Position numbers and translations under genes: made by a program. Below are positions 4,043-37,184 of a DNA stretch of 64,000 nucleotides, piece after piece (within the stretch, counting starts at the first letter, position 1; each line of letters begins with the position of its first letter). This DNA is from Neorhizobium sp. (GTDB taxonomy: Bacteria > Pseudomonadota > Alphaproteobacteria > Rhizobiales > Rhizobiaceae). Location: the NCBI GenBank assembly GCA_028283725.1, contig JAPWKC010000003.1:186001-250000 (forward strand), given 5' to 3'. The notes under the pieces are model-generated. The model saw nothing but the letters and a program-made list of their open reading frames with translations, did no database searches and was not told the origin of the DNA.

Positions 4043-4067
4043 GGAACCAAACGGCAGACGCCGCGTT
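4043..4067 (+). promoter_or_regulatory. EcfG-type general stress promoter
   Basis: GGAAC at 4043-4047 and CGTT at 4064-4067 are separated by exactly 16 bases, matching the known EcfG consensus GGAAC-N16/17-CGTT. It points rightward, lies just after a terminator, and is about 190 bases upstream of the DUF883-like gene. The leader would be long. Confidence 0.6.
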
Positions 4068-6627: not shown

Positions 6628-7200
6628 TCAGCTGCCGAAGGCGCGGGACGTGATCGCCGCATCGCCGGCATCGGGGCCGTAATCGCCTTCGCCGGATACG
6701 CCGAGCAATTCCTGCAGGCGGGTCCTGGCGCGTGAGACGCGGCTCTTGATCGTTCCGACGGCGCAGCCGCAGATCTCGGCGGCCTCCTCATAAGCAAAGC
6801 CCGCAGCGCCGACGAGAACGATCGCCTCGCGCTGGTCGTCCGGCAGCTTGTCGAGCGCCTTGCGGAAATCTTCCAGATCAAGGCGGCCGTATTGTTCCGG
6901 GTGCACGGAAAAGCGCTCGGAAAACAAGCCGTCGGAATCCTGCACTTCACGGCCGCGCTTGCGCATCTGGCTGTAGAATTCGTTGCGCAGGATGGTGAAG
7001 AGCCAGGCACGCATATTGGTGCCGGGGGTGAAACTTTTCTGGTTTGCCCAGGCCTTCATGATCGTGTCCTGCACCAGATCGTCCGCCTTGTCGTGGCGGC
7101 CGGTCAGCGACACGGCAAAGGCACGCAGGTTGGGCAGCGATGCCAGGAGATCGCGCTTGAAGACGCGGTCGTCGCTTTCCGCTTCCTTGTCCTTGATCAT
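6628..7200 (-). CDS. ecfG: General stress ECF sigma factor EcfG
   Basis: A 190-residue ECF sigma factor. Region 2 lies at about residues 15-85 (GRHDKADDLVQDTIMKAW, then MRAWLFTILRNEF) and region 4 at about 118-165 (LPDDQREAIVLVGAAGFAYEEAA, then GTIKSRVSRARTRL). In alphaproteobacteria EcfG directs the general stress regulon from GGAAC-N16/17-CGTT promoters and is held inactive by NepR. Here it overlaps nepR by four bases (7197-7200), so the two are translationally coupled and share the promoter near 7452-7476. Its position next to nepR and phyR makes the assignment firm. Confidence 0.95.
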   Translation of the reverse strand: MIKDKEAESDDRVFKRDLLASLPNLRAFAVSLTGRHDKADDLVQDTIMKAWANQKSFTPGTNMRAWLFTILRNEFYSQMRKRGREVQDSDGLFSERFSVHPEQYGRLDLEDFRKALDKLPDDQREAIVLVGAAGFAYEEAAEICGCAVGTIKSRVSRARTRLQELLGVSGEGDYGPDAGDAAITSRAFGS

Positions 7201-7418
7201 TTCGCTTCCACCTGCTTGGTCAGAGCAGCGTTCTTCTCGGCTTCGTCGAGCCTTTCGAGAAGATCGAGAAAACGATCCGGAATGCCTTCCTCCTGCACCG
7301 CGTCGTAAAAATCGCGCAGCTTTCGGGAAATCGAGGCGTTGGGAGACGTCGATCCGGGCCGGGCCTGATGGGTTTGAACAGAGGTCATCTCATCTTTTTT
7401 TCTAATGTCGTCACTCAT
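7197..7418 (-). CDS. nepR: Anti-sigma factor NepR
   Basis: A 73-residue protein matching the NepR pattern: a short polar N-terminus, then two helices (ISRKLRDFYDAVQEEGIPDRFLDLLERLDEAE, about residues 30-62 when split) that bind EcfG and, under stress, phosphorylated PhyR. It sits between divergent phyR and downstream ecfG, as in most Rhizobiales. The start is uncertain: ATG 7418 has no clear ribosome binding site, and ATG 7388, giving 63 residues, has AAAGATGAG just upstream. The core helices are unaffected by the choice. Confidence 0.93.
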   Translation of the reverse strand: MSDDIRKKDEMTSVQTHQARPGSTSPNASISRKLRDFYDAVQEEGIPDRFLDLLERLDEAEKNAALTKQVEAK

Positions 7419-7485: not shown

Positions 7486-7510
7486 GGAACTTTTTTATCG
7501 GGCCCACGTT
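7486..7510 (+). promoter_or_regulatory. EcfG-type promoter of phyR
   Basis: GGAAC (7486-7490), 16-base spacer, CGTT (7507-7510): an exact match to the EcfG consensus, 45 bases before the phyR ATG. Its -35 element is the right arm of a perfect 8-bp inverted repeat (7472-7479/7483-7490). The left arm is the -35 of the divergent nepR promoter. Confidence 0.85.
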
Positions 7511-7554: not shown

Positions 7555-8349
7555 ATGTCACTCACCACACGCGTTGCGTCGCATCTGCCTTATCTGCGCC
7601 GTTATGCCCGTGCCGTCACGGGTTCGCAGACTTCGGGGGACGCGTATGTCGCGGCGGTTCTGGAAGCGCTGATTGCGGATGTCTCGATTTTTCCCGAGAC
7701 GTCCAAGGATCGCGTTTCGCTCTATAAACTCTTCGTTGCAATCTTTGGTTCCACCGCCATCGAGATCCGGCCGATCGAATCCCCGTTCGCCTGGGAACAG
7801 CGCGCGGCGGCGAACCTTTCGAGCCTGCCGTCGCAATCTAGACACGCATTCCTTCTCGTTTCCGTCGAAGGTTTCACGGTCGACGAGGCAGCCGAAGTTC
7901 TCAATATCGGTGTTGCGGACGTCAATCGTCTGCTCGATGAAGCCTCGCGCGAAATCTCGCGGCAGGTGGCGACCGATATCATGATCATCGAGGACGAACC
8001 GCTCATCGCTCTCGATATCGAGCAGATGGTGCAGGATCTCGGCCACCGCGTGACCGGCATCGCCCGCACGCACAAGGAAGCGGTATCGCTGTTCCAGTCG
8101 TCGCAGCCGAAGATGGTGCTTGCCGATATCCAGCTTGCCGATGGCAGCTCGGGGATCGACGCCGTCAACGAGATCCTGAAAAGCTCCAGCGTTCCGGTGA
8201 TCTTCATCACCGCCTTCCCGGAGCGGCTGTTGACGGGCGAGCGGCCGGAACCGGCTTTCCTCGTGACCAAGCCGTTCAACCCGGACATGGTGAAGGCACT
8301 GATCAGCCAGGCGCTGTTCTTCAACGAGGCTGTGAAGGCTGCAGCCTGA
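7555..8349 (+). CDS. phyR: General stress response anti-anti-sigma regulator PhyR
   Basis: A 264-residue protein, the standard PhyR length. Residues 1-135 form an EcfG-like sigma mimic (a degenerate region 2 and a region 4 around 85-135, LPSQSRHAFLLVSVEGFTVDEAAEVL). Residues 140-264 form a receiver with acidic Glu146/Asp147, phospho-acceptor Asp191 (LADIQLADG) and Lys239, and a FITAF segment equivalent to the FATGUY motif. When phosphorylated it binds NepR and frees EcfG. Start at ATG 7555 because GGGGAG lies 8 bases upstream; the frame extends further 5' but runs through the promoter. It is divergent from nepR-ecfG. Confidence 0.96.
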   Translation: MSLTTRVASHLPYLRRYARAVTGSQTSGDAYVAAVLEALIADVSIFPETSKDRVSLYKLFVAIFGSTAIEIRPIESPFAWEQRAAANLSSLPSQSRHAFLLVSVEGFTVDEAAEVLNIGVADVNRLLDEASREISRQVATDIMIIEDEPLIALDIEQMVQDLGHRVTGIARTHKEAVSLFQSSQPKMVLADIQLADGSSGIDAVNEILKSSSVPVIFITAFPERLLTGERPEPAFLVTKPFNPDMVKALISQALFFNEAVKAAA

Positions 8350-8395: not shown

Positions 8396-8421
8396 GGAAC
8401 TTTTAAACGAGACCGCCCGTT
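8396..8421 (+). promoter_or_regulatory. EcfG-type promoter of the DUF1328 gene
   Basis: GGAAC (8396-8400), 17-base spacer, CGTT (8418-8421): an exact consensus match, ending 28 bases before the ATG at 8450. Transcription would give a short leader with the AAGGAG ribosome binding site. Confidence 0.82.
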
Positions 8422-8699: not shown

Positions 8700-9728
8700 A
8701 TGACATTGGTGCATCCGCTGACATGGCAGCGCGCTGGTCAGAGTGATGACAAACTGCGTGAATTTTTCCTGCAAGCGCTGGTCGATCTCGGCGCTTGCGT
8801 CATCGTGCAGGAAGTGAGCCGCGACACGCTCGACTATGTGTATGTGGCGAACCTTCCCGATGTATGGGCGGTCGAACGCTTTTGCGAGCCGAGCGATGTC
8901 AGCATTTTCGGCGCCGACATTGCCCAGAAAATTTCCGGCTTGAAACGCGGCATGACAGAGCCGGGCGCAAAGACCCATGTGGAAATTGCCGTCGGGGCCG
9001 ATGAGGTCTACGAGTTTCGCGTTCAGGCCCTGAGGTCGGGTCCCGATGCCGATGGCGGCCTTTACCTGGTGACGACGATCATCGATCGCTCCGAGGAACG
9101 GCATCGCGAGCGGCTGTTGCGGGCGCTCTTGCGCGAAGTGAGCCACCGGTCGAAAAACCTGCTTGCGATCATCCAGAGCATTGCATTGCAGACGGCACGG
9201 TATTCCGGTTCGCTGGATCTTTTCCTGCACAAGTTCCGCGGGCGGCTCTATTCGCTGTCGCAGAGCCAGGATCTGATCACCGATTCCAGCTGGCGCGGCG
9301 CCTATTTCAACGATCTGGTGCAGCAGCAGACCGAAAAATATCTTCCGGAAAACAAACATCTCGTGCATGTGGCCGGAGACAATGTGCTCCTGACGCCGAA
9401 TGCGTCCCTGCATCTCGGGCTTGCCCTGCACGAACTGATCGTCAATGCCGTCAGCCATGGTTCCATTCTCAAGAGCGGACGGCCGATCGAAATCGAGTGC
9501 CTGCGGTCACAGCAGGACGGTCGCGACTGGCTGAGCGTGCGCTGGTTCGAGCCGCTCGATCCGTCGGATGCGTCTGCGAGCCATGAGGATGCGTTGAAGG
9601 CGCATTTCGGCTCCACGGTGCTGGAACGCGTGGTGCCGGCCTCGGTCAATGGCCGGGCTCAGTACGACATTTCCGACAATGGCATTTCCTACCAGCTTGG
9701 CTTTCCGCTCGACAGCGGCGCGGAGTGA
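8700..9728 (+). CDS. HWE/HisKA_2-type sensor histidine kinase of the general stress locus
   Basis: A 342-residue soluble histidine kinase. An N-terminal sensory region with PAS-like character (about residues 18-130) precedes a dimerisation/phospho-acceptor region with His149 (LLREVSHRSKNLLAIIQS) and an ATPase domain whose N-box reads LALHELIVNAVSHG (about 240-255). The HR.KNLL phospho-acceptor motif defines the HWE/HisKA_2 class that phosphorylates PhyR (PhyK-type kinases). No transmembrane helix is visible, so the signal is probably cytoplasmic. ATG 8700 follows GGAG. No EcfG site precedes it; it may be transcribed by read-through from the DUF1328 promoter or by its own weak promoter. Confidence 0.87.
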   Translation: MTLVHPLTWQRAGQSDDKLREFFLQALVDLGACVIVQEVSRDTLDYVYVANLPDVWAVERFCEPSDVSIFGADIAQKISGLKRGMTEPGAKTHVEIAVGADEVYEFRVQALRSGPDADGGLYLVTTIIDRSEERHRERLLRALLREVSHRSKNLLAIIQSIALQTARYSGSLDLFLHKFRGRLYSLSQSQDLITDSSWRGAYFNDLVQQQTEKYLPENKHLVHVAGDNVLLTPNASLHLGLALHELIVNAVSHGSILKSGRPIEIECLRSQQDGRDWLSVRWFEPLDPSDASASHEDALKAHFGSTVLERVVPASVNGRAQYDISDNGISYQLGFPLDSGAE

Positions 9729-9867
9729 GCCCTTTTCCTGCGTATAAATGACGTGGATGCGGATACCGCCTTGGCGTGGTGTCCGTCTTTGGCGTGGGAC
9801 GGCGATGATGGAAATATGTCCCGCCTGCGCCCTCTCCCGACATCCTGCGCCTGCGTAAAACAGAGAC

Positions 9868-9984
9868 CCAAAAAGCTGACTGGCCCGGTTCCAGGGGGAA
9901 CCGAGCCAGTGCGTCTCTTCGAGGGGGATTGAAGAGCTGTCCGAAGGCTTAGTAGGGCGGGGGACGGGGGGCGCCTTCGAACAT
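9868..9984 (-). ncRNA. Candidate EcfG-dependent C-rich small RNA
   Basis: On the minus strand an exact EcfG promoter (10015-9991) opens into a gene-free region. From a start near 9984 a roughly 117-nt RNA would contain a C-rich single-stranded stretch (about 9972-9955), a hairpin CTCTTC/GAAGAG with a C-rich loop (9936-9931/9920-9915), and a strong terminal hairpin (9909-9897/9892-9880, one mismatch in 13). The terminal hairpin has a CCCT loop and a TTTTT run a few bases later (9874-9870). C-rich loops able to pair with G-rich ribosome binding regions are known in alphaproteobacterial sRNAs, including Caulobacter GsrN of the general stress response. Only an 11-codon frame (9984-9949) is present. 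Start and end are inferred. Confidence 0.6.
9870..9909 (-). terminator. Terminator-like hairpin of the small RNA
   Basis: A 13-position stem (9909-9897 with 9892-9880, one mismatch) and CCCT loop, followed on the minus strand by TCAGC and five T residues (9874-9870). The five-base gap before the T run makes it an imperfect intrinsic terminator. It could also stop leftover transcription from the kinase gene. Confidence 0.5.
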
Positions 9985-9990
9985 AGCTAT

Positions 9991-10015
9991 AACGAGCCGT
10001 GCGGAAGAAGGTTCC
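9991..10015 (-). promoter_or_regulatory. EcfG-type promoter, leftward, for the small RNA
   Basis: On the minus strand GGAAC (10015-10011), 16-base spacer and CGTT (9994-9991): an exact EcfG consensus match. No protein gene follows on that strand before the kinase stop, so the product must be a non-coding or very short RNA. Confidence 0.7.
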
Positions 10016-10170
10016 AACCGTTGCAAAAAAGATTCAAGAAAAGTTTTTTATGTGGTCCTCGCTCGTCCCGCAGCACCGGTTCCGGCCGCTCTTTCAGCGG
10101 CGTTTCACCGGCAGTGCGCGACGGACATTGCGCAAGCCGCCGAGGACCAACGTGGGCGACAAACGGCAAA

Positions 10171-33764: not shown

Positions 33765-35726
<1,962 letters not shown>

Positions 35727-35888: not shown

Positions 35889-37184
35889 TCACGCCGTTTG
35901 CGGCTTCAGACGGGCCGAGCCCGGCTTTTGCAGGAGCATGACGCCGACGGCTGCGATCAGGCACATGACGCCGGCAATCTGCAGGGCGGGCATGTAGCTG
36001 TCGTAGTCGCTGCGCAGATATCCCGCGCCCCAGGCCGCGGTCGCCGCGCCCAGCTGGTGGCCGGTGAAGACCCAGCCGAAGACGAGGCCCGCCTTTTCGC
36101 GACCGAAATTATCGGCTGCGAGCTTGACCGTCGGCGGCACGGTGGCGATCCAGTCCAGGCCGTAGAAGACGGCGAATGCCGAAAGCTCGTAGAACGAGAA
36201 GCCGGAAAAGGACAAGTAGATCAGAGACAGGCCGCGCAGCCCGTAATACCAGAAGAGCAGGACGCGGTTGTCGTAACGGTCCGACAGCCAGCCGGACATG
36301 ATCGTGCCGAAGAAGTCGAAGATGCCGAGTACCGCAAGCGTGCCGGCCGCAGCGACAGGCGCAAGGCCGAAATCGCCGCAGATGGAGATCCAGTGGGTCT
36401 GGATGAGGCCGTTGGTCGACAGGCCGCAGACGAAAAAGCTGCCGAACAGGATCCAGAAGACGGGGCTGCCGGAGACGCTGGCGAGCGTCCTGATGGGCGA
36501 GACCAGCGTTGTCAGGAGCTTGTGATCCTGCTTCGGCGGCTTCGTGACCGATGTTTCGCCATAGGCCGGCAGGCCGACATCCGAGGGGTGGTCGCGCATC
36601 AGCAAGAGCACGAGGATCATGGCGACCAGAATGGCCGAGGCGGTGAGGATCAGCGCCGTGCGCCAGCCATAGGTCTGGCTGAGATCGGCCAGAAGCGGCA
36701 GGAACAGGAGCTGGCCCGTGGCGTTGCTGGCGCTCAGCATGCCCATGACAAGGCCGCGGCGATGCGAGAACCAACGGGATGCCACGGTTGCCCCCAGCAC
36801 CATGGCCGTCATGCCGGTGCCGACGCCGATGACGATGCCCCAGAGCGCCACCAGCTGCCAGATCTCGGTCATGAACATCGAAGCGACGATGCCGACGAGG
36901 ATCAGCGCCAGCGCTGCCGACACCACCTGGCGTATGCCGAAATGGTTCATGAAGGCTGCCGCAAAGGGGCCGAGCAGGCCGAACAGCACCAGACGAACGG
37001 CCATGGCAAACGAGATATCGGCGATATCCCAGCCGAATTCGTCATGCAGCGGCTGGATCATCACGCCGGCCGAGCCCATGGCGGCGGCCGTTGCCAGCAT
37101 CGTGAGAAACGTCGTGGACACCACGACCCAGCCGTAATGCAGATTGCGGCCGGCCATGAAACGCGCGGCGTAGGTGGATATCAT
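35889..37184 (-). CDS. MFS transporter under MarR control
   Basis: A 431-residue major facilitator with twelve predicted helices. The start MISTYAARFMAGRNLHYGWVVV resembles OFA/monocarboxylate-type porters, and SRWFSHRRGLVMG (near residue 130) and the loop GWLSDRYDNRV carry the family's basic residue patterns. ATG 37184 has GGGAAG 8 bases upstream; the frame begins at 37202. A palindrome CGGGTA-TC-TACCCG lies 59 bp upstream, and a similar site precedes the neighbouring marR gene, so the two are likely one regulon. The solute is unknown; an organic acid or toxic aromatic is possible. Confidence 0.87.
   Translation of the reverse strand: MISTYAARFMAGRNLHYGWVVVSTTFLTMLATAAAMGSAGVMIQPLHDEFGWDIADISFAMAVRLVLFGLLGPFAAAFMNHFGIRQVVSAALALILVGIVASMFMTEIWQLVALWGIVIGVGTGMTAMVLGATVASRWFSHRRGLVMGMLSASNATGQLLFLPLLADLSQTYGWRTALILTASAILVAMILVLLLMRDHPSDVGLPAYGETSVTKPPKQDHKLLTTLVSPIRTLASVSGSPVFWILFGSFFVCGLSTNGLIQTHWISICGDFGLAPVAAAGTLAVLGIFDFFGTIMSGWLSDRYDNRVLLFWYYGLRGLSLIYLSFSGFSFYELSAFAVFYGLDWIATVPPTVKLAADNFGREKAGLVFGWVFTGHQLGAATAAWGAGYLRSDYDSYMPALQIAGVMCLIAAVGVMLLQKPGSARLKPQTA

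Follow-up and report, generated by a model that had tools for sequence, protein, structure and literature searches.

The gene-free space beside the general stress response (GSR) kinase in the window (the whole 64-kb stretch of DNA analysed here) encodes a predicted small RNA which, judged by its promoter, its position and its match to a covariance model, is an ortholog of ReC64 of Rhizobium etli. We consider it very probable that this is a trans-acting GSR small RNA, transcribed by EcfG and pairing through its C-rich loops with G-rich stretches of mRNAs. The observation on which the initial annotation was based was confirmed as real, and much of what was found there is already described in R. 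etli. Its interpretation as an EcfG-driven GSR small RNA with a conserved promoter, stems and C-rich loops held, now as a putative ReC64 ortholog, while its suggestion of a leaderless peptide did not.

Genomic context, promoter and predicted transcript

The GSR locus in the window was complete, consisting of ecfG, nepR, phyR and an HWE kinase gene (Table 1), and the domain matches bore out the placement of the small RNA inside the ecfG/phyR locus, beside the stress kinase. On the side away from the kinase, the small RNA was flanked by an OppC-type permease gene. The GGAAC-N16-CGTT box reported on the minus strand was exact, and the intergenic location, the hairpins and the T-run were likewise found as described. 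The start of the small RNA was inferred from the position of the EcfG box, giving a predicted length of ~117 nt. The folding energy of 9986-9868 was -50.9 kcal/mol, compared with -32.55 ± 3.3 kcal/mol for 200 dinucleotide shuffles (z = -5.56), none of which was as good. The predicted fold comprised three hairpins, namely two with C-rich loops and then the terminator hairpin. The hairpin with a C-rich loop and the strong terminal hairpin of the initial annotation were thus retained, whereas its ‘C-rich linker’ corresponded to the 24-nt loop of hairpin 1.

Table 1. Coordinates of the GSR locus, the predicted small RNA and related places in other genomes (positions without a locus label refer to the window).
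Feature	Position	Strand	Remarks
ECF sigma factor, ecfG by context	6628..7200	minus	sigma-70 regions 2 and 4; adjoins nepR, phyR
nepR	7197..7418	minus	PF18557
phyR	7555..8349	plus	PF22029, PF22233, PF00072
HWE histidine kinase gene, TcrY-like by position	8700..9728	plus	PF07536; convergent with small RNA
EcfG-type promoter GGAAC-N16-CGTT	9991..10015	minus	exact match; GGAAC 10015-10011, CGTT 9994-9991
Small RNA (predicted)	9870..9987	minus	start predicted a few bases past CGTT (~9987-9983); end taken as the T-run
Hairpin 1	9938..9983	minus	11-pair stem, 9983-9973 with 9948-9938; 24-nt C-rich loop 9972-9949
Hairpin 2	9915..9936	minus	loop AATCCCCCTC; stem invariant in related group
Intrinsic terminator	9870..9910	minus	stem 9910-9879; T-run 9874-9870
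R. etli ReC64 place	L199:2461-2601		
Second copy	L037:1022-1140		
Second copy	L038:1086-1205		same place as L052
Second copy	L084:2243-2362		

The motif GGAAC-N15-17-CGTT occurred at 5 sites in the 64-kb window, compared with 1.23 expected, and none of 100 shuffles reached 5. The other exact sites, all on the plus strand, were located at 7486-7510 (upstream of phyR), 8396-8421 (upstream of the DUF1328 gene, which lies within the GSR locus), 4043-4067 and 36701-36725. In the whole genome, an EcfG box followed by CCCCC within 8-38 nt was found at a single place (three nested matches). This motif pair was rejected as a genome-wide signature and alone proves nothing, because the reversed control of the pattern gave 5 matches genome-wide. 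The case for the predicted small RNA is carried by comparative evidence, that is, by the exact box in 82 of the 83 stretches that bear its core motif. The source genome contained a single copy (E 9e-28; next best match, 0.46). No Rfam family matched the window at its gathering score; the best sub-threshold matches on the small RNA strand, ar7 (12.6 of 60 bits, E 4.6) and Pxr (17 of 80 bits, E 1.5), were at chance level and were rejected.

Conservation and covariation in the genus group

A BLASTN search with positions 9850-10030 matched 36 of 60 genomes, i.e., the source genome and 35 others of the same genus; every same-genus genome matched, and the 24 genomes without a match all belong to other families of the order. 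The group bearing the small RNA centres on Neorhizobium, Pseudorhizobium and some species still called Rhizobium. All of the first 30 loci had both the exact EcfG box and the adjoining kinase. The core motif was present in 83 of 108 stretches, and the only one of these without a visible box (L080) begins too near the small RNA to show it. The 25 stretches without the core were L037 (a second copy whose C run is shorter), L040 (cut off) and 23 others, nearly all from unrelated bacteria. The 83 stretches represented 55 distinct sequences, as the same locus was frequently present in two collections; the alignment of 55 distinct transcripts takes in L037.

Across these 55 transcripts, 99.7% of the pair cells held standard pairs, and pairing fell to ~51% when the partner was slid by one column. 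Changes on both sides were observed in 16 of 27 pairs (shuffle mean, 7.9), and the covariation score was 0.365, compared with 0.177 after shuffling; for both measures, none of 500 shuffles was as high. The count of further standard pair types was not clearly above that of the shuffles in the same alignment (28 versus 25.9; 66 of 500). Covariation was seen in 6 of the 10 modelled pairs of hairpin 1 and in 10 of the 11 of the terminator, while the six pairs of hairpin 2 never varied and are therefore silent on pairing. The loops were near-fixed, with GTCCCCCGCCCT of the hairpin 1 loop present in 53 of the 55 aligned transcripts and the hairpin 2 stem plus CCCCCTC in all 55. The initial annotation had proposed looking for conservation of the promoter, loops and stems in related loci, and this was what we observed; base changes that break the stems or the boxes were looked for across the relatives, and stems and boxes were kept instead.

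Of the 78 stretches having both, 72 had the small RNA and the kinase in convergent orientation. In the other 6 stretches, from 4 genomes (L023, L024, L055, L077, L102 and L107), the small RNA, promoter and terminator were inverted as a unit relative to the kinase and permease, and the small RNA was still intact, EcfG box included. Three genomes contained a second copy away from the GSR locus, each with an EcfG box of its own (Table 1), and a DUF808 gene adjoined the second copy in both cases in which the neighbours were checked (L052 and L084). Promoter and small RNA move together as a unit.

Orthology with ReC64 of Rhizobium etli

The genome of R. etli CFN42 was recognised via a 100% match to plasmid p42f. 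At its kinase locus, a convergent EcfG box lay ~218 nt beyond the kinase match and preceded an RNA with C-rich loops. We picked 30 Rhizobium loci across the identity range from 148 genomes of that genus, and the RNA was present in all 30, with the exact box in 25 and AGTT replacing CGTT in 5. A covariance model (R1) derived solely from the window's group was run without filters on 25 of the 30 loci. Its best match was located at the ReC64-equivalent place in all 25, with one match per locus, at full length and on the correct strand (E 1.5e-6 to 0.015). The covariance model search suggested in the initial annotation thus led to the ReC64 place itself, which R1 matched in R. etli with an E value of 2.3e-6.

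ReC64 was detected in R. etli by tiling array and Northern blot (PMC2881028). 5'RACE placed its start at a position consistent with the EcfG1 motif. A fusion of its promoter was silent in an ecfG1 mutant, whereas EcfG1 and EcfG2 activated it in E. coli (PMC3892343). ReC64 was raised by saline shock in a study that attributed its promoter to SigA and RpoH, i.e., to other sigma factors (PMC4167512). Among putative homologues of GsrN, Tien et al. (2018) listed an R. etli RNA from this locus, a prediction based on the Jans data and on nearness to the GSR locus; the consulted passages of that paper do not call it ReC64 (PMC5869019). In the accessible open-licence literature, with subscription papers outside its scope, we found no target or deletion phenotype for ReC64.

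The published sizes of ReC64 may point to processing. Counted from the CGTT box in R. etli, the end of hairpin 2 lies at 91 nt and that of the T-run at 129 nt; assuming a start 4-8 bases past the box, hairpins 1 and 2 together would measure 83-87 nt and the full RNA 121-125 nt. ReC64 was reported as 88 nt, a band that the authors read as the primary transcript, along with an additional larger band that was left unexplained (PMC2881028, PMC3892343). The published length thus ends at hairpin 2, ~35 nt before the terminator. Since the two band sizes fit hairpins 1 and 2 and the full transcript, respectively, we infer that the larger band would be the transcript running to the terminator, and that cleavage, as in GsrN, would give the 88-nt band as a 5' product comprising hairpins 1 and 2. 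This reading gives a testable account of two published oddities, namely a length that does not reach the terminator and the additional band of larger size.

Distribution in the wider family

The kinase was present in 70 of 111 family genomes. Outside the window's genus, we searched 68 kinase-downstream regions (67 genomes; one match, G064, was excluded), in which 23 EcfG boxes were oriented opposite to the kinase. The next 120 nt contained two or more C runs, each of four or more C, after 15 of these 23 boxes and after 0 of 35 same-strand boxes, under a criterion of two or more C runs that was set after part of the loci had been seen. One of the 15 sites was a Rhizobium sensu stricto locus (L134), and 53 of the 68 regions had no such combination of box and C runs. 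Run without filters on 67 of these family loci, the model returned 10 matches with E below 0.01, of which eight lay opposite the kinase strand within ~600 nt, one was on the wrong strand (L133) and one was ~860 nt away (L143). In a more distant relative from another genus, the model scored 49.3 bits (E 3.7e-9) at L113:1470-1620, where three C-rich hairpins were kept; the upstream box there was GCAAC-N16-CGTT, not GGAAC-N16-CGTT. With strict filters, the model search matched 7 of 247 family genomes, leaving 240 without a match and including no Rhizobium sensu stricto match.

Across the family, the promoter, the position and the C-rich loops seem to be more durable than the primary sequence, as far as these searches indicate, although this claim is far weaker than that made for the genus. 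A bolder reading, which we offer tentatively and consider rather doubtful, is that of a Rhizobiaceae-wide stress RNA family held in position, with turnover of sequence and a constant EcfG promoter and C-rich loops. Its active form would be the cleaved 5' product (hairpins 1 and 2), blocking many G-rich ribosome-binding sites at once and acting as an anti-Shine-Dalgarno brake on translation within the GSR.

Proposed function and target search

In the mechanism that we favour, PhyR would free the sigma factor EcfG from NepR under stress, and EcfG, acting at the box at 10015-9991, would transcribe the small RNA up to the intrinsic terminator (9870). Hairpins 1 and 2 would then pair, through their C-rich loops, with G-rich mRNA stretches, some of them probably ribosome-binding sites, and this pairing would change the translation or stability of those mRNAs. 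We infer pairing with mRNAs from the C-rich loops, which, as in GsrN, suggest G-rich stretches as partners.

The GsrN target katG was not supported as a conserved target of this RNA (26 leaders, 40 genus genomes). It was not found at threshold in 10 of the 40 genus genomes, including the source genome, whose assembly is 78% complete. We tested 26 of the 30 katG matches, the four omitted being three from genomes without an RNA locus in the set and one incomplete match. The leaders showed no consistent pairing in a fold-free duplex test, a weak negative: for 4 of the 26, no more than 1 of 60 shuffles did equally well. That katG was not supported as a shared target suggests that the job of the small RNA differs between lineages. 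Within the window, pairing with the leaders of nepR, ecfG, phyR, the DUF1328 gene and the kinase gene was no better than with 200 shuffles. A chemotaxis-receptor-like gene (33786-35726, plus strand) has GGGGG just before its likely start and was among the 12 best in a survey of the window's 46 long open reading frames; it was rejected as a target, the G-run being absent from the 11 orthologs examined.

The loops that are near-fixed while the stems vary, and the fact that no mRNA partner was found among the leaders tested (katG, the GSR genes and the chemotaxis gene), would also fit an RNA that mainly binds protein, sponging up an RNA-binding or cold-shock protein with a liking for C-rich single strands. 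We judge this improbable: we know of no such protein in this group. Moreover, in GsrN, the closest studied analogue, the loops pair with G-rich mRNA sites (PMC5869019). A mainly cis-acting role, in which convergent transcription or a bidirectional terminator limits the kinase or permease genes, accords with the prevailing convergence with the kinase (72 of 78 stretches), but is very unlikely given that the small RNA remains intact with its box in the 6 inverted stretches, that second copies exist away from the kinase, and that the loops are conserved in sequence, which a cis role does not require. The leaderless 11-codon peptide proposed from 9984 can practically be dismissed, since its frame (MFEGAPRPPPY, at the predicted 5' end of the window RNA) is shifted by loop-length changes and occurs in only 1 of the 55 related transcripts, although 30 of them have a start codon there. 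Pairing of the C-rich loops with G-rich mRNA stretches remains our preferred reading.

Comparison with known systems

The protein core of the alphaproteobacterial GSR is well studied, and in the accessible open-licence literature we met one RNA arm with a worked-out mechanism, that of GsrN of Caulobacter crescentus. GsrN combines control by an EcfG-family sigma factor, an exposed C-rich loop near the 5' end and an intrinsic terminator, is located near GSR genes in most relatives and is cleaved to a stable 5' isoform (PMC5869019). The window RNA likewise has an EcfG/SigT-type promoter close to GSR genes, a predicted exposed C-rich loop near its 5' end and a predicted intrinsic terminator. We drew this likeness on features, not on sequence; according to Tien et al., BLASTn matches of GsrN are found only within Caulobacteraceae (PMC5869019). 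Unlike GsrN, the window RNA has two C-rich hairpins ahead of the terminator, and katG was not supported as its target.

With ReC64, the window RNA shares a location within the ecfG-phyR locus, downstream of the GSR kinase and convergent with it, the EcfG consensus box directly upstream, and the three hairpins with C-rich loops. The two differ in the primary sequence of the stems and in much of the loop sequence; ReC64 of Rhizobium has an inner hairpin within hairpin 1 and a GTCCCCTCCC-like hairpin 2 loop, compared with AATCCCCCTC in the window, and its published length is 88 nt, compared with the ~117 nt predicted here. Being common to Rhizobium and to genomes of the Neorhizobium group, with loops that hardly vary and stems that covary, the RNA makes ReC64 well suited to target mapping.
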